Shown here one piece after another: positions 652 to 10,071 of a DNA stretch of 42,402 nucleotides. Source of the DNA: an uncultured Hyphomonadaceae bacterium (GTDB lineage: Bacteria > Pseudomonadota > Alphaproteobacteria > Caulobacterales > Hyphomonadaceae). A program made the translations under genes and the position numbers. Where the stretch lies: the NCBI GenBank assembly GCA_938011445.1, contig CALLUH010000071.1:1-42402 (forward strand), written 5' to 3'. The notes below the pieces were generated by a model that saw only the letters and a list, made by a program, of their open reading frames with translations, was not told where the DNA came from and ran no database searches. The number at the start of each line of letters is the position of its first letter. Position 1 is the first letter of the stretch.

Positions 652-834
652 ATGACAACCGACATCATGACGATCCGCGAAGTCGCTGAGTACCTCAAGA
701 TCGCGGAGAAGACAGCTTATCGCCTTGCGGCAGAGGGCGAGTTGCCAGGGTTCAAAGTGGGCGGAAGCTGGCGCTTCCAACGAAATGAAATTGATAAATG
801 GATAAAGGCGAAACAGGGCAAAGTTGATGAGTAA
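652..834 (+). CDS. Excisionase-family helix-turn-helix DNA-binding protein
   Basis: This 60-residue protein is almost entirely a MerR/excisionase-type winged HTH. The motif TIREVAEYLKI begins around residue 7, is followed by a second helix KTAYRLAAEGELPG, then the wing FKVGGSWRFQRNEIDKW. The family includes phage excisionases and small transcriptional regulators. It is first in the five-gene operon, with an AGGGG ribosome binding site 6 bases upstream of the ATG, and its stop overlaps the start of the next gene. The position suggests an operon regulator, which in restriction systems often delays nuclease expression. It could instead be a relic of the mobile element. The fold call is firm; the role is inferred. 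Confidence 0.85.
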   Translation: MTTDIMTIREVAEYLKIAEKTAYRLAAEGELPGFKVGGSWRFQRNEIDKWIKAKQGKVDE

Positions 835-3800
835 TTCGTTTTTTGAAGAACCGATTCTCAATTCGCCCTATGAGGAGCCAGCACGCCATCATGCGCTCGA
901 TGGAGAAGGACAGCCAACCGATCTGCCGCCGATAGCTGGGCGTCGCCCATCCGCACTCCTTTCACCAATTCCTAAGTCAAAGAAGCGTCGATCAAAAAAG
1001 GCTGATGACGAACAGCAAAAACTGAAATTGCATGTAGATGACGGGGTGTCATCTGAAGATCAGGAATATAACCCGACACCCATCATCAATGATATTCGCA
1101 CGCAACTAAAACAATGGCGCGCGATTTCTAATCCGCAGGATTGGGGAGTAACGCCAGCAACGGCCCGCTTGCTTCAACACTGGCGCAGTCATGAATTTCA
1201 TGGCATTCGCCCATTCTTTTGTCAGATTGAGGCTGTTGAAACTATTATCTGGCTGACGGAGGTTGCTCGAAGTCGTCGAAGCGCAACCAATGTAAAGAAT
1301 AAAAACCGCGAACGTCGAATTTGGGATCACATTGAGAACGCCAACGCTGGCGCCAATCCAGAGCTGTTGCGGCTCGCGCTTAAAATGGCAACTGGCGCTG
1401 GTAAGACGACTGTAATGGCTATGCTAATCGCATGGCAAACGATCAATGCCGTTAGATCACCATCCAGTAAGCTGTTTACGCGCGGGTTCCTGATCGTTGC
1501 GCCGGGCATTACAATTAAAGACCGGCTTCGAGTCCTTCAGCCCAGCGACCCTGATAGTTATTATGAAAGCCGTGAATTGGTTCCGGCCGATATGCTGACC
1601 GATCTCGCTAAGGCGAAGATCGTCATTACCAATTACCATGCCTTTAAGCTCAGAGAGTTGTTGGATGCGAAAAAGACAACACGCTCTTTGCTGCAAGGCC
1701 GAAACGAGCCGATCCAGAGTCAGGAAACCGAAGGGCAAATGGTTCGCCGCGTCGCGGATGAGCTAATGGGTATCAAGAACATCATCGTGATTAACGATGA
1801 GGCTCACCACTGCTACAGAGAGAAACCGGAAAGCGAAGAAGGTAAACTAACAGGCGATGAACGCAAAGAGGCGGCTGAAAACAGCAAAGCTGCCCGGCTC
1901 TGGATTAACGGTATCGAGGCGTTCAAACGCAAACTCGGTGTTCGCACGGTTTACGACCTGTCAGCTACACCATTTTTCCTGAGCGGATCTGGCTGGGCGG
2001 AAGGTACACTCTTCCCCTGGACGATCAGTGATTTCTCACTGATGGATGCGATTGAATGCGGAATTGTAAAGCTGCCGCGCATTCCCGTGGATGATAACAT
2101 ACCCGGTGCAGAAATGCCTGTTTTCAGGAATCTTTGGGATCACATAGGAAAGGATATGCCAAAAACCGGCGGCCAGACCGGTGACCCCAACTCAATTCCG
2201 GATAAACTAAAAACAGCACTTCACTCTCTATACGGACACTATGAAAAGGTTGCTGACGCTTGGGAGCGTGAGGGCATAGAAACCCCGCCTGTTTTTATCG
2301 TTGTTTGCAATAATACAACGACGTCCAAACTGGTTTACGAGTGGATTGCTGGATGGCAGCGCGACAATGAAGACGGAGAACCCATCACCCAACATCGCGG
2401 CAACCTGCCTCATTTCCGTAATTTTGACCAATATGACGAGCCGCTCGCCAAACCGAACACACTGCTAATTGACAGTAAACAGATTGAAAGCGGTGAACTC
2501 GACGAAAACTTCCGGGAAATGGCAGCCCCGGAGATCGACAAATTCAAACGCGAGCGAAAGCAGCGCGGCGAACATGGTGAAATCTCAGACTCCGAATTGC
2601 TCCGGGAGGTGATGAACACCGTCGGCAAGAAAGGCCGATTGGGAGAGCAGATACACTGCGTTGTTTCCGTCTCAATGCTGACGGAGGGCTGGGACGCCAA
2701 TACGGTCACGCATATTTTGGGCGTTCGTGCTTTTGGCACGCAACTACTTTGCGAACAGGTGGTTGGTCGCGGCCTGCGTCGTCTTTCCTATGAACTTAAT
2801 GAACATGAGCGCTTTGATAGTGAATATGCCGACATTCTCGGTATCCCGTTCAACTTCACCGCAAAACCAGTCGTCGCTCCACCGAAAGCGCCCAAAAAGA
2901 CAACACATGTCAAAGCGATTAAAGAACGCGAGGCGTTGGAAATTTCGTTCCCTCGTGTCGTCGGCTACCGCGTTGATCTGCCAGAGGAGCGCTTGAAAGC
3001 AGACTTCACCGAAGAGTCTTCCTACGTGATCGACCATGAAATGATCGGCGCCAGCCAGACTGATATGTCTGGCATTGTTGGTGAGGGACACACACTTTCG
3101 CTGAAAGAGGCGCAAAATCTTCGCCCCAGCACCATCGCCATGAATCTGGCGAAAGACGTGCTTAACCGCCACTTTGTCGATGAGGATGGGGAAGCCAAAT
3201 ATCATCTCTTTGGACAGATCAAAGGCATTTGCAGACGCTGGATTGATGAAGGCTATTTGAAATGTCCGGGCGATACCGAACCCTGGATGTTGAGTTTCTA
3301 TCCCGAGATCGCAGCCCAAGCGACAGAGCGGATTGTCACCGCTATTGTCCGTGCTGGCGACGGCGAAGCCCAAGTCAAAGCCGTGATCGACCCCTACAAC
3401 CCAACAGGCTCAACGCGGCATGTCAGTTTCACAACCACCAAGGATGTGCGCGAAACCGATCCTCGCAAATGCCATGTGAACTATGTGGTCAGCGATAGCG
3501 ATTGGGAAGCCGAGTTTGCCCGTGTCGCTGAAAACCATCCCAAGGTTTTGTCTTACGTCAAAAATCAGGGTCTGGGCTTCACCGTGCCCTACAAGGACGG
3601 TGATGTGGCGCGTGAATATGTGCCTGACTTTATCGTGCAGGTGGACGACGGACGCGGGCCTGACGATCCGCTCAATCTCATCATCGAGATCAAAGGTATG
3701 AAGAATGAGCAGGTGAAGCTCAAGAAAGAAGCCATGACCGAAAAATGGACGCCGGGCGTAAATGCGCTGGGCACCTATGGTCGATGGGCCTTCGATCAGT

Positions 3801-3886
3801 TCGACAGCGTGTTTGAGATTGATGACGATTTGAAAGCACTGATTGAGCGGGCAGTAGACAACAAGAAAAGTGAGGGGGACGACTAA
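827..3886 (+). CDS. Type III restriction-like Res subunit: DEAD/DEAH helicase with PD-(D/E)XK nuclease
   Basis: About 1019 residues, the size of type III restriction Res subunits. Counting from the ATG, Walker A ATGAGKTT is near residue 188, the DEAH box NDEAHH near 323, motif III LSATP near 378, and motifs V-VI (EGWDANTVTHILGVR to QVVGRGLRR) run about 620-652. The C-terminal YVPDF (about 931) and IIEIKG (about 952) form the D...EXK nuclease core. Type III enzymes translocate or slide on DNA and cut when two unmodified sites meet. The start overlaps the HTH gene stop (ATGAGTAA); an in-frame TTG one codon earlier is less likely. Its stop overlaps the mod ATG by one base. Unlike classical mod-res operons, res comes first. 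All catalytic motifs look intact. Confidence 0.9.
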   Translation: MSNSFFEEPILNSPYEEPARHHALDGEGQPTDLPPIAGRRPSALLSPIPKSKKRRSKKADDEQQKLKLHVDDGVSSEDQEYNPTPIINDIRTQLKQWRAISNPQDWGVTPATARLLQHWRSHEFHGIRPFFCQIEAVETIIWLTEVARSRRSATNVKNKNRERRIWDHIENANAGANPELLRLALKMATGAGKTTVMAMLIAWQTINAVRSPSSKLFTRGFLIVAPGITIKDRLRVLQPSDPDSYYESRELVPADMLTDLAKAKIVITNYHAFKLRELLDAKKTTRSLLQGRNEPIQSQETEGQMVRRVADELMGIKNIIVINDEAHHCYREKPESEEGKLTGDERKEAAENSKAARLWINGIEAFKRKLGVRTVYDLSATPFFLSGSGWAEGTLFPWTISDFSLMDAIECGIVKLPRIPVDDNIPGAEMPVFRNLWDHIGKDMPKTGGQTGDPNSIPDKLKTALHSLYGHYEKVADAWEREGIETPPVFIVVCNNTTTSKLVYEWIAGWQRDNEDGEPITQHRGNLPHFRNFDQYDEPLAKPNTLLIDSKQIESGELDENFREMAAPEIDKFKRERKQRGEHGEISDSELLREVMNTVGKKGRLGEQIHCVVSVSMLTEGWDANTVTHILGVRAFGTQLLCEQVVGRGLRRLSYELNEHERFDSEYADILGIPFNFTAKPVVAPPKAPKKTTHVKAIKEREALEISFPRVVGYRVDLPEERLKADFTEESSYVIDHEMIGASQTDMSGIVGEGHTLSLKEAQNLRPSTIAMNLAKDVLNRHFVDEDGEAKYHLFGQIKGICRRWIDEGYLKCPGDTEPWMLSFYPEIAAQATERIVTAIVRAGDGEAQVKAVIDPYNPTGSTRHVSFTTTKDVRETDPRKCHVNYVVSDSDWEAEFARVAENHPKVLSYVKNQGLGFTVPYKDGDVAREYVPDFIVQVDDGRGPDDPLNLIIEIKGMKNEQVKLKKEAMTEKWTPGVNALGTYGRWAFDQFDSVFEIDDDLKALIERAVDNKKSEGDD

Positions 3887-6786
3887 TGGCGCGAAAACCC
3901 AAAGCACCAAAACAGGTTGAAACCCTGACACATGAAAATGCGAGCCGGAGGAATATTCCGACGGCGGAGTTGCAGTCCACGGCAGAGCGGCTGGAGGAGC
4001 AACATCCGTTTGAGCCGGTGACGTATGAGCGTGCCAACCCGCTTGACAAGGGTGAAAAACGCGAACGTGACGCAGACCTTGATCCGCAGATTGTCTGGAA
4101 GGGAACGAGTATTCGCCTAACCGACGACCAAATTGAAGCGCTCAAAGCTGGCGAAAAAGTTGAACTGGGCGATGCGCAACTGGTCTGGCGCGGCAAGGAC
4201 ACGCAAGACTGGTCCGATCTCGTGGTGCAGGCGCCGCCGATCTACGTGCAGGAGAAAATCCACCCGAAAGCCATCATTGAGGATTTGAAACGCCAGACCA
4301 AGGAACGGCGTGATGATGACAGCGGCACCTTTGATCTGTTTGAGGATTTCAACGGTCTTGACCCGGAAGCCAAAACCGAATTTTATCAACACGACCAGCA
4401 TTGGCAAAACCGCATGATCCTCGGCGACAGCCTGCAAGTCATGGCGAGTCTTGCCGAACGCGAAGCCTTGCGCGGCAAAGTGCAGTGCATCTATTTCGAT
4501 CCGCCTTATGGGATCAAATTCAATTCAAACTGGCAGGTGTCTACGCGCTCGCGGGATGTGAAGGACGGCAAGCTGGATCAGATTACGCGGGAACCGGAAC
4601 AAGTGAAAGCCTTCCGGGATACGTGGAAGGATGGTGTTCACTCCTATCTAACCTACCTGCGTGATCGCCTTACTGCTATGCGGGATTTGCTTACAGAGAG
4701 TGGTTCAATCTTTGTGCAAATTGGAGATGAGAATGTCCATCGTGTCCGTGCTCTGATGGATGAAGTTTTTGGGGAAGAGAATTTCGTTGCTCTTATATGT
4801 TTTCAAAAGACGGGGGGGTTAGTCTCTGAAGGCGTAGTTCAAACGCTAGATTTTATCTTATGGTACTCGAAAGTTAGAGAAAAAACAAAGATACGTCAGT
4901 TGTATGACCTAAGAAGAGCCGGTGATCCATCTTTGGAGCGTTATGATCTAATCACGGCCCCATGTGAGCCTCCAAGACGAATAACAACACTCGAAAGAAC
5001 GAATGGTCACGATAAAGAATTATTGAGAAGCCAGTTAACTTCTTTAGAATCGGATAACCCTAGATTCGAGTTTTTATTCCAGGGAAAGCCTCTGAAGCAA
5101 AAATGGAAAACAAACCTCAAGGGCTTAAATAGGCTCAACTATGCAGGGCGCATCCACAAGCCTGCATCCACGGCCAGATATATTCGACATGTTGAGGATT
5201 TTTCTATCATACCTATCACAGATCGATGGGACTCCATGCAAATTGGAACGAGTTTGAACTATGTAGTACAGACATCAACTACTGTTGTTCAACGCTGTAT
5301 ACTCATGGCCACCGATCCCGGTGATCTAGTGCTCGACCCAACTTGTGGCTCTGGCACAACAGCGACGGTTGCCGAACAATGGGGGCGGCGATGGATTACC
5401 ATAGATACATCGCGTGTTGCTCTCGCACTGGCTCGTACCCGCCTGATGAGTGCGCGCTACCCTTATTACTACCTCGCAGACAGCTCTGACGGACGAGAAA
5501 AAGAACAGAATATTTCTGGACAAATCCCGCCTGATACTCAAACCCAAAACGATATTCGCCACGGCTTTGTCTATGAACGTGCGCCGCATATTATGCTCAA
5601 AACGATCGCGAATAATGCCGAAATAGATGTCATCTGGGAAAAGTGGCAGCAGACGCTTGAGCCACTGCGCAAAGAATTAAACGATATTCTCGATAAAGAC
5701 TGGCAGGAATGGGAAATTCCGCGTGAAGCTGATGCGAGTTGGTCAGATAATATCGCGGCGGTTCATGCAAGCTGGTGGGATGCCCGCATCAAACGGCAGC
5801 AGGAAATCGACACATCCATCGCGCAAAAGGCGGATGTCGAATATCTCTATGATCGGCCCTATGAAGACAAATCGAAAGTCCGCGTGGCTGGCCCCTTCAC
5901 CGTTGAAAGCCTCTCGCCGCATCGCGTAATCCCCGCCGATGAAGACACATTGATGGATGAGATCAATGCGGTTGAGGGCAATCGCCCACGTCCGAAATCC
6001 GGCCCAAGCGCCGCGCCCGCACAAGACTTTGCGACGATGGTGCTGGAAAACCTCAAATCCGCTGGAGTCCATCAATCAGATAAGCAAGATCGCATTGAAT
6101 TTACGGCAATGGAAGGCTGGCCGGGCGACTATATCGCCGCAACCGGCACCTATGAACAGGCCGGCGTTGCGAAACGCGCAGCTATTTTCATCGGCCCTGA
6201 ATTTGGTTCCATCACCCGCTCAGACATTATGGCAGCGGCGCGCGAAGCGAATGACGCGCGTTTCGATGTCTTGATCGCCTGCGGTTTCAACTTCGATGCG
6301 CATTCGTCCGAAGTGGACAAGCTCGGTCCATTGCCGATCCTGAAAGCCAAAATGAATCCCGATCTGCATATGGCGGATGATCTGAAGAATACCGGCAAGG
6401 GTAATCTGTTTGTCGTATTCGGCGAGCCGGATGTCGAATGGGACTTCGACAAAGACGGCAACATTATCGTCGAGGTGTTGGGCATAGACGTGTTCGATCC
6501 CAAAACCGGCGAAGTCCGCGCCTCCGGCAAGGACGACATCGCGGCTTGGTTCATTGATACGGACTATAATGAAGAGAGTTTCTTCGTGCGCCACGCCTAT
6601 TTTATGGGTGCGAATGATCCTTACAAATCGCTCAAAACCAGCTTGAAAGCAGAAATCGACGAAGAAGCCTGGGCAACGCTTTATCGAGACAAGTCCCGGC
6701 CTTTCATGCGCCCCTCTACAGGTCGCTTTGCCGTCAAAGTCATCAATCATTTCGGTGATGAAGTGATGAAAGTGTTTGGGGTGTAG
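3886..6786 (+). CDS. Site-specific adenine DNA methyltransferase, type III Mod-like with long C-terminal extension
   Basis: At 966 residues this is much longer than a usual type III Mod (roughly 600-700). The catalytic DPPY motif is at residues 205-208, inside YFDPPYGIKF. The SAM-binding motif DPTCGSGTT follows at 484-492. DPPY before the SAM motif is the beta-class arrangement typical of N6-adenine Mod enzymes, so the target recognition domain lies between them. That segment (about residues 300-475) is coded by clearly AT-richer DNA than its flanks. Residues from about 560 to the end form an extra region of unknown function that may contact the Res partner. It is coupled to res through TAATG. 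Its presumed job is to protect host sites and to direct Res. Confidence 0.9.
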   Translation: MARKPKAPKQVETLTHENASRRNIPTAELQSTAERLEEQHPFEPVTYERANPLDKGEKRERDADLDPQIVWKGTSIRLTDDQIEALKAGEKVELGDAQLVWRGKDTQDWSDLVVQAPPIYVQEKIHPKAIIEDLKRQTKERRDDDSGTFDLFEDFNGLDPEAKTEFYQHDQHWQNRMILGDSLQVMASLAEREALRGKVQCIYFDPPYGIKFNSNWQVSTRSRDVKDGKLDQITREPEQVKAFRDTWKDGVHSYLTYLRDRLTAMRDLLTESGSIFVQIGDENVHRVRALMDEVFGEENFVALICFQKTGGLVSEGVVQTLDFILWYSKVREKTKIRQLYDLRRAGDPSLERYDLITAPCEPPRRITTLERTNGHDKELLRSQLTSLESDNPRFEFLFQGKPLKQKWKTNLKGLNRLNYAGRIHKPASTARYIRHVEDFSIIPITDRWDSMQIGTSLNYVVQTSTTVVQRCILMATDPGDLVLDPTCGSGTTATVAEQWGRRWITIDTSRVALALARTRLMSARYPYYYLADSSDGREKEQNISGQIPPDTQTQNDIRHGFVYERAPHIMLKTIANNAEIDVIWEKWQQTLEPLRKELNDILDKDWQEWEIPREADASWSDNIAAVHASWWDARIKRQQEIDTSIAQKADVEYLYDRPYEDKSKVRVAGPFTVESLSPHRVIPADEDTLMDEINAVEGNRPRPKSGPSAAPAQDFATMVLENLKSAGVHQSDKQDRIEFTAMEGWPGDYIAATGTYEQAGVAKRAAIFIGPEFGSITRSDIMAAAREANDARFDVLIACGFNFDAHSSEVDKLGPLPILKAKMNPDLHMADDLKNTGKGNLFVVFGEPDVEWDFDKDGNIIVEVLGIDVFDPKTGEVRASGKDDIAAWFIDTDYNEESFFVRHAYFMGANDPYKSLKTSLKAEIDEEAWATLYRDKSRPFMRPSTGRFAVKVINHFGDEVMKVFGV

Positions 6787-6792
6787 GCGCTT

Positions 6793-7704
6793 ATGTTTAA
6801 TCTCTTGATGAGTGGTAATGACGAGGCGTTTCGGGGCGAACCTTGGACATTGGAACGCAACAGAGTGTTCGAATATACCAGCGACGCAAACGCGGCACGG
6901 TTTCGTGATTTAACGCCGGAAACCCTCGAAGAATTGTATCGGCTTCCATCATTGATCGCCTATGAAAGACAATGCAATCAGGCCGCGCGGTTGGGTAAAA
7001 TAGACCGGATTCGAATTAGGCAAGCTGAGATCAGAATTGAATATTCAATTATCCCAGGACTGCCGGAAATTCCGAGTGAACAGTTGTTTGGTCTCGAATG
7101 GGAATTGGATATTCAAGGTTTTGAACAAAACAGGACACATTGGGCGATAAAAGACGTTGATTTACGTGCGGAACTCATCGCTTCAAATATCATTCAAGAG
7201 GCTCAGTTCCAAGGATTGCCAGCACAGTTTCAAGCGCTTTTCATGGAGAACCAGCCAGGTCCAGAGCTTCACGTTCAACCCTCGGTGTTCCGTATTCCCG
7301 ACGCCGCCCAAGAACCGAGTATAGTTTCGGTAATGATCCCATTTGATGCTGCATTTAATCCGGTTTTTGAAGCAATTCAAAATGCCGGTCAACAAATTGG
7401 CCTGCGTGTGTTGAATGCAAATCAAGTTTGGGAAGAGACAGAAATCATTCAAGATATATTCTCCCTGATTTACCGCTCCAAGTTCGTTATTTGCGATTTT
7501 AGCCAGAGGAACCCAAATGTGTTCTACGAGGCTGGTATAGCTCATACTTTGGGGCGGCCCGTAATACCTGTCGTTCAAAATGCTGCGCATATTCCATTTG
7601 ACTTGCAACATCATCGGCATGTGATTTATCTGAATAATGCAGAGGGGCGAGATAGGCTGATCGAAGAAATTTTACCTCGCATGAGAAGTTTGGCGGCGGG
7701 GTAA
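6793..7704 (+). CDS. Possible nucleotide-processing effector: C-terminal nucleoside 2-deoxyribosyltransferase/TIR-like domain
   Basis: 303 residues. Residues 177-300 resemble the nucleoside 2-deoxyribosyltransferase-like fold: SVMIPFD near 179-185, then FVICDFSQRNPNVFYEAGIA at 231-250, then a GRPVIPV strand. In this superfamily the glutamate of the NxFYExG motif (here E246) is the catalytic nucleophile that attacks N-glycosidic bonds, and the aspartate of the CDFS strand (D235) lines the pocket. The first 170 residues match no family I recognise and may be a sensor. The gene starts 6 bases after mod and ends 4 bases before the UvrD gene. It is visibly AT-richer than both flanks. I infer an NAD- or nucleotide-cleaving effector, or a nucleotide sensor. 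It could also be a TIR-like ligand-binding domain. Confidence 0.7.
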   Translation: MFNLLMSGNDEAFRGEPWTLERNRVFEYTSDANAARFRDLTPETLEELYRLPSLIAYERQCNQAARLGKIDRIRIRQAEIRIEYSIIPGLPEIPSEQLFGLEWELDIQGFEQNRTHWAIKDVDLRAELIASNIIQEAQFQGLPAQFQALFMENQPGPELHVQPSVFRIPDAAQEPSIVSVMIPFDAAFNPVFEAIQNAGQQIGLRVLNANQVWEETEIIQDIFSLIYRSKFVICDFSQRNPNVFYEAGIAHTLGRPVIPVVQNAAHIPFDLQHHRHVIYLNNAEGRDRLIEEILPRMRSLAAG

Positions 7705-7708
7705 TAAA

Positions 7709-9829
7709 ATGAAATTTCTTCTTGCCGATACCTTCCAAACCGCGCTGGCCAAGCTGACCAATGATGAACAGAAGGCAGTCAAACTAACTGTCTTTGATCT
7801 CCAGCAAGACCCGTCAAATCCGGGGCTAAAGTTTCATCGTATCGACAAATCTAAGGATGCGAATTTCTGGTCACTACGGGTCAACCGCGACATTCGACTG
7901 ATCGTTCATAAAACCAAGTCGAGCTTTCTTGTTGCCTATGTGGATCATCATGACGATGCCTATAAATGGGCGGAGCGCAGGCGCATCGATGCACATCCGC
8001 GCACTGGTGCCGCGCAGATTGTTGAAGTGCGTGAGCGCGTCGAAGAGATCACCATCCCGAAATATGTCGAGGCAGAGACGCCCGAAGTCCCGATGGCTGC
8101 CGAAGCCCCGGCGCGTTTCTATCCGCCGCTATTTCTGAAACTCACAAATGACGAATTGCTCAGCGTCGGTGTGCCGGAGGATTGGCTTGAGGATGTGCGC
8201 AATGCTTCGGAAGACAATTTCCTTGATCTGGCTGACTATATTCCAAGCGAAGCGGCGGAAGCCTTGCTGGATTATACGGCCACTGGCCAATTAGTTGTTC
8301 CCGGCGAAGCTGGTGCGGGAATTGATCCGTTCGCGCATCCTGATGCGCGTCGGCGTTTTCGCGTCATGGAAAATGTCGAGGAGCTGGAACAGGCGCTCAA
8401 CTATCCGTGGGACAAATGGGCGATATATCTGCATCCGGCGCAAAGAGAGTTGGTTGATGGCAATGTCTCGGGTCCGACTCGCGTGGCTGGTTCAGCAGGA
8501 ACGGGAAAGACCGTTGTGGCGCTGCATCGTGCGGCCTATATTCTGGGTTCGAATAAAGAAGCCAAACTTCTGCTGACCACATTTTCAAGCCCGCTTTCCA
8601 ATGCGCTTGAACATAAGTTGAAACTCTTGCAGTGTGATGACCCAAATCTCGATCATCGTGCATCTATCCGGCCTTTTGAGGGAATAGCGAAAGAGCTTTT
8701 CACGCTCATCAATGGTCATGACCCCAAAATGGCGCGACAAGAGCATGTCGTTCCGGCCCTCGCGCAAGCGGCTAAAGAACAAGAATTGGAAGGGTTTACA
8801 GATCGCTTTTTGATGTCTGAATGGCGATGTGTCGTGGATGCCTGGCAAATTGATGGGTTAGACGCATATGCTCGCGTCCCCCGATTAGGACGGAAAAACC
8901 GATTAGGAAGTCGCCAGCGTGAGAGGCTATGGCCAGTCTTTGAGCGGGCTAGGGCAATTCTGGCGGGTCAGCATAGATATACACCTGCGAGCGTTTTTGG
9001 GAACGTCGCCGCATATTACAAAGACCGTCCAGTTAAGCCTTTCTCCCACATTATTGTTGATGAAGCACAAGACCTTGGCGTGCCGGAACTAAAGATGCTG
9101 TCAGCCATAGCGCCAAAAGAACCAGAGGCGCTATTTTTTGCAGGTGACTTAGGACAACGAATTTTCCAGGAACCGTTTTCATGGCTTGGACTGGGTATTG
9201 ATGTGCGCGGGCGTTCGCATACCCTCAAAGTAAATTACCGAACATCGCACCAAATTCGTCAATCAGCGGACAAATTGCTTCCTGCGGTGGTGCGTGACGT
9301 GGACGGCATTGAAGAGGATCGCCGAGGCACAATTTCAATTTTTAATGGCCCCGTTCCTGACGTTCAAATTCACGACAATTCAGAAGATGAAATCCGTTCA
9401 ATCGGTTTGGTTATTCATGAAGCGATAGATGATGGAATGCCTGCTGAAGAAATCGGCGTTTTTGTTAGGTCTGTAGATGAACTTTCACGCGCAAGAAAAG
9501 CCGTCAATGAAGCTGGACAGACCCCGCTAGAGCTTTCCGACCGGGTTGAAGATAGAACCGGCCGTATCGCAATAGGCACAATGCATCTAGCGAAAGGTCT
9601 GGAGTTCCGTAAGGTGATCGTCATGGCGTGTGACGAGAACATTCTTCCCGATCAGGATAGGATCGACACAGTTGCGGATGAAGTTGAACTTGATGAAGTT
9701 TATGATACCGAGCGCCAGCTATTTTATGTCGCCTGTACAAGAGCAAGAGAAAGTCTGACGGTATCGGGGGTTGCACCAGCTTCTGAGTTCTTTGCCGATA
9801 TGGAAGGCAATGAAAATGGCGGTCCCTGA
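7709..9829 (+). CDS. UvrD/Rep-family helicase with N-terminal RelE-like toxin domain
   Basis: 706 residues. Residues 1-95 look like a RelE/YafQ-type ribonuclease fold, with the hallmark FWSLRVNRDIRLIVHK at 53-68. Residues about 235-706 are a superfamily 1A helicase: Walker A GSAGTGKT at 261-268, motif II VDEAQD at 450-455, motif III AGDLGQ at 478-483, motif IV NYRTS at 509-513, motif V TMHLAKGLEF at 624-633, and motif VI YVACTRAR at 673-680. The helicase motifs look functional. No antitoxin gene is adjacent, so the RelE part may act as a specificity or regulatory module or a latent toxin. The start lies 4 bases after the previous stop. The last codons and the TGA lie inside the convergent tRNA-Arg gene. 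Confidence 0.88.
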   Translation: MKFLLADTFQTALAKLTNDEQKAVKLTVFDLQQDPSNPGLKFHRIDKSKDANFWSLRVNRDIRLIVHKTKSSFLVAYVDHHDDAYKWAERRRIDAHPRTGAAQIVEVRERVEEITIPKYVEAETPEVPMAAEAPARFYPPLFLKLTNDELLSVGVPEDWLEDVRNASEDNFLDLADYIPSEAAEALLDYTATGQLVVPGEAGAGIDPFAHPDARRRFRVMENVEELEQALNYPWDKWAIYLHPAQRELVDGNVSGPTRVAGSAGTGKTVVALHRAAYILGSNKEAKLLLTTFSSPLSNALEHKLKLLQCDDPNLDHRASIRPFEGIAKELFTLINGHDPKMARQEHVVPALAQAAKEQELEGFTDRFLMSEWRCVVDAWQIDGLDAYARVPRLGRKNRLGSRQRERLWPVFERARAILAGQHRYTPASVFGNVAAYYKDRPVKPFSHIIVDEAQDLGVPELKMLSAIAPKEPEALFFAGDLGQRIFQEPFSWLGLGIDVRGRSHTLKVNYRTSHQIRQSADKLLPAVVRDVDGIEEDRRGTISIFNGPVPDVQIHDNSEDEIRSIGLVIHEAIDDGMPAEEIGVFVRSVDELSRARKAVNEAGQTPLELSDRVEDRTGRIAIGTMHLAKGLEFRKVIVMACDENILPDQDRIDTVADEVELDEVYDTERQLFYVACTRARESLTVSGVAPASEFFADMEGNENGGP

Positions 9830-9893
9830 ACGATTCGAACGTTCGGCCTCCACCTTCGGAGGGTGGCGCTCTATCCAGCTGAGCTAAGGGACC
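9817..9893 (-). tRNA. tRNA-Arg (anticodon CCG) with encoded CCA
   Basis: On the minus strand a complete cloverleaf folds: 7 bp acceptor stem, 4 bp D stem with the AGCTGGATA loop, 5 bp anticodon stem CCACC/GGTGG around loop CTCCGAA (anticodon CCG), 5-base variable loop, 5 bp T stem GAACG/CGTTC with loop TTCGAAT, discriminator G, then genomic CCA at 9819-9817. It should read arginine CGG codons. Its 3' end overlaps the final 13 bases of the convergent UvrD-family gene. tRNA 3' ends are favoured integration sites for genomic islands, and here the 3' end faces the island. Confidence 0.96.
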
Positions 9894-10004: not shown

Positions 10005-10071
10005 TCACCCAAATCACCGCTTGACATCCTGCTTCGGAGGGCAGCGCTCTATCCAGCTGAGCTATGGGTGC
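10005..10071 (-). pseudogene. Degenerate tRNA-Arg (CCG) remnant
   Basis: On the minus strand, positions 10071 down to about 10032 form a good tRNA-Arg 5' half: acceptor GCACCCA, intact D arm and anticodon loop CTCCGAA. After the loop the sequence departs. The 3' anticodon strand is altered, no T stem-loop with GGTTCGAATCC is present, and only an acceptor-like TGGGTGA at 10011-10005 remains, which could be chance. The total would be 67 rather than 74 bases. It differs in the stems from the intact copy at 9817-9893, so it is not a simple duplication. It may be the host's original gene, broken at the anticodon loop when the island arrived. Confidence 0.8.

Follow-up and report, generated by a model that had tools for sequence, protein, structure and literature searches.

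In textbook type III restriction-modification (R-M) operons mod precedes res, and the enzyme uses ATP to cut DNA a fixed number of bases away from a pair of unmethylated sites. The operon described here lies in a 42,402-nucleotide (nt) stretch of DNA from an uncultured Hyphomonadaceae bacterium (contig CALLUH010000071.1), the whole of which we call the window. It resembles a type III system in that its adenine methyltransferase (MTase), Mod, carries a DPPY motif ahead of the S-adenosylmethionine (AdoMet) motif and is encoded beside Res, a superfamily 2 (SF2) helicase with a PD-(D/E)XK nuclease, and it differs from one in that Res comes before Mod and belongs to the BPTD_3080 family (NF046055), and in having a third core gene, which encodes a RelE-UvrD fusion, and two slots for passenger genes. 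Judged by gene content, Res-Mod-RelE/UvrD is the conserved unit. We give a probability of about two in three to the reading that the operon is a horizontally acquired restriction chassis made of these three genes, with an optional regulator and two junctions that take interchangeable, mostly defence-like genes, the passenger acting as a backup effector. Within that reading, and on sequence grounds, the organization into a core and variable slots is near certain and defence is the likely function of the operon.

ARMADA type II likewise ends in a RelE-UvrD fusion (ArmD), has an MTase in its operon and occurs in tRNA-linked islands (PMC12458937). Deletion of any of the four ARMADA genes, or mutation of the ArmD Walker A motif, is reported to abolish protection, and the gene order is strict (PMC12458937), whereas the slots of the window-type operon vary; a BrxHII-like ArmA and a YprA-like ArmC were not found in our operon, and its MTase is not PglX-like. 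Among the PADLOC matches listed for the five window proteins (the best 25 of 58 for Mod and the best 25 of 47 for RelE-UvrD) there is no DruE, DrmA, BrxH, DrmMI or PglX. ArmB- and ArmC-like queries from Allomeiothermus had no match in the whole window, for which no ArmA query was used and in which the sequence before position 652 is short, and the ArmC-like query had none in the window's own genome (88% complete). On plasmids of Thermus, Allomeiothermus and Pseudanabaena, a RelE-UvrD homologue (30–37% identity) comes last, behind large MTase and helicase genes, with two opposite-strand genes between the MTase and the helicase in Thermus; the Allomeiothermus MTase matches DrmMI, and the Allomeiothermus and Pseudanabaena helicases match DruE. 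ArmC/YprA-like helicase stretches also occur in the flanks of three loci in which Mod and RelE-UvrD are present (L033:14737-18087, L120:16707-19895 and L152:1881-2888, with the loci turned to the Mod strand).

The embedding of defence genes in other operons is already known. Hma is reported to be a helicase-MTase-ATPase operon with embedded defence genes (HEC) (PMC11411939, PMC12839542), type I R-M operons carry TgvAB or DarTG (PMC11411939, PMC12255303) and BREX carries embedded nucleases (PMC12839542). The window-type operon has a cargo family in common with Hma (HEC-05, nine slot open reading frames (ORFs)), but the core proteins differ, and the Pfam matches of the five window proteins include no DUF499 ATPase (HmaC). 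As in type I R-M and BREX, defence genes stand between core genes, although those cores are unlike the one found here; for the window-type operon, the loyalty of passengers to a slot and the exactness of the boundaries were measured for two slots. The text returned by open-licence literature searches held no report of embedded genes for this operon or of a type III-like pair joined with RelE-UvrD. The first protein of the operon, a small helix-turn-helix (HTH) protein, exceeds the MAD1 cut-off of MADS (Table 1), but among the PADLOC matches listed the other four were not identified as MAD2-8, the only such match being mad2 to Mod at 33.5 bits. In Gabija, the OLD-type nuclease GajA is encoded next to GajB; RelE-UvrD scores 78.3 bits against GajB in PADLOC, and none of the five window proteins had an OLD-like match in Pfam or PADLOC.

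The Res-Mod-RelE/UvrD core

When the GTDB species collection was scanned for exact peptide words of RelE-UvrD, a search that favours near relatives, 61 loci came up, 50 of which have Mod upstream (as a 21-residue fragment at a contig edge in one of them, L026). Five of the 11 others lie at contig ends, with at most 1.2 kilobases (kb) upstream, and six (L071, L077, L079, L080, L081 and L082) truly lack Mod despite 5.6–10 kb of upstream sequence, which leaves Mod in 50 of 56 testable loci. ArmB- and ArmC-like queries had no match in these 11 loci. L079–L081 align to residues 3–256 or less of RelE-UvrD, and the ORF of L080, with 279 amino acids (aa), is likely a remnant. In L082 (9914-15037), a RelE-UvrD homologue (40% identity) lies beside an opposite-strand reading that resembles an SNF2-type helicase, possibly another context of ArmD-type helicases.

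The association also holds in the other direction. A scan with Mod had matches in 18 of the 289 class genomes and 23 of the 398 phylum genomes, the window's own genome being included in both. Genome G302, whose match lies at a contig start, was omitted, and of the 39 regions then taken three were dropped as duplicates of the RelE-UvrD set, giving 36 loci; RelE-UvrD is present in 24 of these, and in 24 of 28 when testable near homologues of Mod are considered. The 12 loci without it comprise four with distant Mods (34–43% identity, in the order Mod-Res), four cut off by the end of the contig within 3.7 kb and four in which Mod is a near homologue. Two loci, L125 and L127 (genomes G162 and G260), have a rearranged core in which Mod precedes Res and RelE-UvrD follows on the opposite strand.

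Because RelE-UvrD and Mod associate in both directions, the operon amounts to more than type III R-M genes with unrelated neighbours. The first-pass annotation of this DNA had allowed for just such an ordinary system next to unrelated genes, and we consider it distinctly unlikely that RelE-UvrD and the others are independent defence genes clustered near an ordinary type III-like pair. Such a view would account for the clear recognition of Mod alone as type III by standard models, for the absence of RelE-UvrD from all four loci with distant Mods, in which Mod comes before Res, and for the other genes, a CBASS pair among them, that can follow Mod. It does not account for the way RelE-UvrD and Mod predict each other over widely diverged cores, for the frequent 4- and 1-nt overlaps of RelE-UvrD with the preceding gene, or for the RelE-UvrD homologues that also close MTase-helicase operons in Thermus, Allomeiothermus and a cyanobacterium.

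Motifs were aligned for 54 Res, 64 Mod and 76 RelE-UvrD sequences; genes whose match was split into pieces or fell clearly short of full length were left out, and two short RelE-UvrD frames and one short Res frame were kept. Conservation is at least 97% for Walker A, DEAH and PD..ExK of Res, for DPPY (at 205) and AdoMet motif I (at 484) of Mod and for the helicase motifs of RelE-UvrD, and the same is true of residues H43, R57, D61, R63, H67, H80, H81, D82, Y85, W87 and R91 of the RelE domain. An AlphaFold model of RelE-UvrD residues 1–133 (predicted local distance difference test (pLDDT) 87.6) retrieved YoeB, RelE and YafQ in Foldseek (best E 2.6e-5), which supports a predicted RelE fold for the helicase N-terminus; a comparison of the RelE region with solved-structure sequences gave no match. 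The first-pass annotation's toxin-domain helicase has a described homologue in ArmD of ARMADA type II (PMC12458937).

The last 21 residues of Mod, GRFAVKVINHFGDEVMKVFGV (window 6721-6783), are conserved to at least 97% at 15 of 21 positions in the 64 Mods and are a possible docking tail. A recombination site at the Mod 3' end was considered and rejected, the wobble bins of the tail being 0.50 and 0.52 against 0.507 overall, and no DNA-level attachment-site signal was seen when one was looked for at the Mod end. One slot-B passenger, L041:7897-8973, ends in a copy of the Mod C-terminal tail, KVINSLEDEVLNVFGV, and is the sole passenger found with one.

Slots A and B and their passengers

Slot A is the Res/Mod junction and slot B the Mod/RelE-UvrD junction, and the slot counts include the window and take in loci with a visible junction and RelE-UvrD on the same strand. 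Slot A is at least 150 nt long in 53 of 66 visible loci and holds a called + strand ORF in 51; for slot B the corresponding figures are 59 of 72 and 57. Of the 59 loci that show both junctions, 5 have less than 150 nt in each slot, and the slot-free minimal operon is also found on a Pseudomonas plasmid. Kordiimonas and Nitrosomonas (L050 and L055) are among the carriers of slot-free operons. Clustering of + strand ORFs of at least 70 aa (minus-strand and shorter ORFs were dropped) sorted 149 passenger ORFs into 84 families, comprising 60 singletons, some of them possibly spurious ORFs, and 24 recurrent families.

The passengers appear mostly defence-like. Among the Pfam matches listed for the 150 + strand slot ORFs (the best 25 of 62 families) are GmrSD_N (9), NYN (7), HNH_2 (5), AAA_15/OLD-like (4), PIN (4), Bro-N (4), REase-ARP (3) and PDDEXK_13 (3), and the PADLOC matches listed (the best 25 of 303) include HEC-05 (9), PDC-S11 (6) and PDC-S13 (4). 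When representatives of 20 recurrent families were scanned, nine had no Pfam match up to E 0.05 and there were two GIY-YIG matches under the cut-off. Ten recurrent families were compared with PADLOC; four had a match up to E 1e-4, a weak one in the case of F4 and F9, and the other six had none. Four recurrent families, F6, F7, F8 and F16, have neither a Pfam nor a PADLOC match.

Each of the 24 recurrent families (89 ORFs in total) occurs in a single slot, and slots A and B have no family in common in the sample; 2000 label shuffles, which ignore descent, gave an average of 5.95 and a maximum of 13 single-slot families out of 24. Counted on a 61-locus tree of Mod and RelE-UvrD, slot A takes 23 states with at least 33 changes in 56 loci, and slot B takes 37 states with at least 43 changes in 59 loci. 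Repeated gain or loss in a constant slot is seen for F0 (8 loci, 6 changes), F1 (7 loci, 5 changes), F3 (6 loci, 5 changes) and F5 (4 loci, 4 changes).

The edges of the exchanged segments were located in pairs of loci with a core identity of at least 80% and no common gene in the slot (112 pairs for slot B, 48 for slot A). At slot B, the point where DNA homology breaks off is no more than 10 nt from the Mod stop in 110 of 112 pairs, and the point where it returns is equally close to the RelE-UvrD start in 108 of 112; at the right edge of slot A it returns no more than 10 nt from the Mod start in 39 of 48 pairs and no more than 30 nt from it in all 48. Among 57 loci, the overlap between RelE-UvrD and the final slot-B ORF is 4 nt in 14 and 1 nt in 15. 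A direct view of exchange comes from the window and its nearest relative, L024 (Marinicaulis, 82% over Mod and RelE-UvrD), which has other genes in both slots; in the window, slot A is empty and slot B holds a TIR-like gene.

The operon in the window, its TIR-like gene and its surroundings

As the first-pass annotation had it, five genes run in one direction with tight junctions: the ORFs are intact, all lie on the + strand and are separated by −8, −1, +6 and +4 nt in gene order (Table 1). Res starts at an ATG, with TTG 824 as an alternative start in the ORF list. Pfam identifies HTH_17 in the first gene, ResIII (PF04851) and RE_endonuc (PF19778) in Res, N6_N4_Mtase (PF01555, 115.2 bits) in Mod and UvrD in RelE-UvrD, together with a HigB-like match under the cut-off (20.6 bits versus 27). 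The GC content at third codon positions (GC3) is 0.434 for the TIR-like gene, 0.468 for RelE-UvrD, 0.54 for Res and Mod and 0.66–0.68 for two downstream host genes; a separate origin of the TIR-like gene fits, because its GC3 lies below that of Res and Mod.

Table 1. Features of the operon and the adjoining tRNA genes (positions in the window)
Feature	Position	Strand	Remarks
HTH_17 / MAD1-like small DNA-binding protein	652..834	+	60 aa; NF047737 85.6 bits (cut-off 80); optional
Res: SF2 helicase and PD-(D/E)XK endonuclease, BPTD_3080 family	827..3886	+	1019 aa; NF046055 1293.6 bits; core
Slot A (Res/Mod junction)	3886..3886	.	empty in the window, 1-nt overlap
Mod: adenine methyltransferase, type III kind	3886..6786	+	966 aa; PADLOC MTase_III PDLC03632 1203.5 bits; core
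Slot B (Mod/RelE-UvrD junction)	6787..7708	+	filled by the TIR-like gene in the window
TIR-like passenger gene	6793..7704	+	303 aa; N-terminal domain ~1-150, C-terminal TIR / nucleoside-deoxyribosyltransferase-like domain ~175-303
RelE-UvrD, ArmD homologue	7709..9829	+	706 aa; RelE-fold domain (predicted) ~1-106, then UvrD/GajB-like superfamily 1 (SF1) helicase; core
Complete tRNA-Arg(ccg)	9817..9893	-	3' end overlaps the RelE-UvrD stop codon ending at 9829
5' half of native tRNA-Arg(ccg)	10032..10071	-	truncated behind the anticodon loop; relatives G655 and G657 have the whole gene

Neither Pfam nor NCBIfam has a match for the TIR-like protein, which matches the PADLOC model 'Effector TIR' at 40.2 bits and gave only chance-level matches against solved-structure sequences. 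For its model (pLDDT 84.7, predicted template modelling score (pTM) 0.53), the top Foldseek matches are nucleoside deoxyribosyltransferases, TIR domains, DNPH1 and BcmB, all of them weak (E 3.7e-4 to 1e-3), the TIR domains of SARM1 and SPARTA being among the matches with scores that are weak and alike. Because these scores are weak and similar, NADase and nucleotide N-glycosidase chemistry are both compatible with the protein. Members of the TIR / nucleoside deoxyribosyltransferase superfamily have a Rossmann-like fold and a catalytic Glu; the TIR-like protein has the motif NPNVFYE from residue 240, and E246 is invariant in 12 aligned sequences.

Relatives of this protein are mostly met outside the operon. 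In slot B there is one, in L058, which aligns in the C-terminal domain only, at 30% identity; outside the operon they occur in 9 of 289 class genomes (own genome included) and in 93 plasmid records, 16 of which cover more than 80% of the length. As a single query the protein found no relatives in viral contigs, and an alignment query of the family found them in 28, many through the C-terminal domain alone. Checked by tblastn in the stretches available, 36 such loci (from 4 of the 8 other genomes, 5 plasmids and 27 of the 28 viral contigs) have no Res, Mod, RelE-UvrD or HTH nearby. On plasmids the relatives stand behind a type II R-M set or amid DUF262, TIR and caspase genes. Over its first 141 residues the protein shares 40% identity with an E. 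coli plasmid protein that carries a TIR-domain annotation, and on two plasmids (L193:8001-9618 and L194:6959-8722) neighbouring paralogues have a common C-terminal domain and differing N-terminal domains. The alignments point to a modular two-domain protein that travels on its own and to a gene that is a passenger of the operon, not a fixed component.

The HTH protein is a probable regulator of the operon, and of the 51 loci that extend far enough upstream (window not counted), 12 have an HTH relative ahead of Res. The first-pass annotation had proposed all five families as one candidate defence system. A conserved, defence-like operon does emerge from the counts, but the fixed five-gene unit was rejected, since HTH is optional and slot B can hold many other genes in place of the TIR-like one: the neighbours of homologues vary freely for these two of the five genes, and not for Res-Mod-RelE/UvrD. 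Tight junctions and the distant TIR-like relative in the same slot of L058 would suit a true five-gene system, HTH-regulated and with the TIR-like protein as a dedicated effector triggered by the R-M complex. This is very improbable given the other genes in both slots of L024 and the coreless surroundings of the TIR-like family in 36 of 36 loci checked.

The operon was said to abut a tRNA gene; it does, and more closely than that, the RelE-UvrD stop codon lying inside a complete tRNA-Arg(ccg) that is a likely integration boundary. Beyond it lies half of the native tRNA-Arg (Table 1), the 3' half of which was not found in the window's own assembly (88% complete); a lone match on another contig, with two mismatches, was taken for a different tRNA. 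The tandem arrangement fits successive tRNA-targeted insertions, as reported for ARMADA islands. The contig starts 651 nt before the HTH gene, and no left boundary is seen in it.

Copies of the operon are found in 14 IMG/VR contigs, at least three of them identical to contigs of the RelE-UvrD-scan loci, and on plasmids, where 11 of the 20 records matching RelE-UvrD are near homologues. In eight Rhodobacterales loci (L047, L051, L052, L057, L058, L062, L072 and L084) the operon is followed downstream by genes for a ParB-MTase and a terminase, and these copies look prophage-borne; in L057 (12588-20572) the ParB-methyltransferase and the large terminase are named by PHROGs, and the seven other loci carry similar genes. 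The terminase genes, the IMG/VR and plasmid records and the tRNA gene at the end of the window operon would all suit an operon that mainly serves prophages and plasmids in competition between elements or in their stabilisation, with the passengers as addiction or exclusion modules. We regard this as rather unlikely: the same observations are compatible with defence too, and a search of 50,697 phage records at E 1e-40 brought up no match to RelE-UvrD.

The proposed restriction chassis weighed, and its meaning

In the preferred reading of a restriction chassis with exchangeable passengers, Mod would methylate adenine at a host-specific site, and Res would load on unmethylated invading DNA, translocate with ATP and cut with its PD-(D/E)XK domain. 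RelE-UvrD, as an ArmD-type SF1 helicase, may process ends or replication intermediates, with its putative RelE RNase kept in reserve. The TIR-like passenger would then be a backup effector against phages that escape restriction, its N-terminal domain sensing or docking and its C-terminal domain cleaving the N-glycosidic bond of NAD or a nucleotide, and translational coupling would link the passenger to expression of the core. A more tentative extension, which we hold to be possible, is that the two junctions are distinct docking places at which passengers are exchanged approximately from stop to start codon, and that the slot-specific sets are slot-specific layers of one coupled response, in which restriction would act first, RelE-UvrD second and the passenger last.

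Several observations weigh against the chassis reading. The operon's Res precedes Mod and matches the type III models of PADLOC weakly (31.7 bits), and the first scan was biased towards near relatives. Four of the 28 near Mod loci lack RelE-UvrD in 7–12 kb (L122, L136, L147 and L156, the last with a broken Mod). On a Methylomagnum plasmid (L244:11841-14349) a CBASS phospholipase and nucleotidyltransferase follow Mod in the place expected for RelE-UvrD, and on a Picosynechococcus plasmid a 1875-nt gene without assigned function follows Mod, with a UPF0175/DUF3368 pair in slot A. It is not proven that defence genes are enriched in the slots relative to the neighbourhood, as the flank control was uninformative: the flanks, of whose 244 candidate ORFs 150 were scanned, matched 361 PADLOC families and the slots 303, and the flank matches listed (the best 25) are all methyltransferase models with 5–6 members each. 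Slot loyalty may come partly from shared descent. The left edge of slot A is less exact than the others, since only 4 of the 48 pairs lose homology within 10 nt of the Res stop and 14 within 30 nt, and elsewhere it ends up to 55 nt inside Res. Finally, passengers are more alike than their cores in 23 of 146 same-family pairs and not in the other 123; direct swapping among the sampled loci is therefore not the rule, and passengers seem to be drawn from a wider pool or to evolve faster.

If the chassis reading is true, operons possibly filed as plain type III R-M by annotation pipelines would be a rich trap for new defence genes, because 60 of the 84 passenger families were seen once in a sample of modest size (some maybe spurious) and 9 of the 20 scanned recurrent families have no Pfam match. 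It would further place RelE-UvrD helicases of the ArmD type in restriction systems as well as in ARMADA, and the role of the RelE domain would therefore become addressable in a three-gene operon. The loyalty of passengers to their slots raises the question of what ties a passenger family to one junction. Should the passengers indeed form slot-specific layers of one response, families F6, F7, F8 and F16 would be undescribed antiviral effectors.

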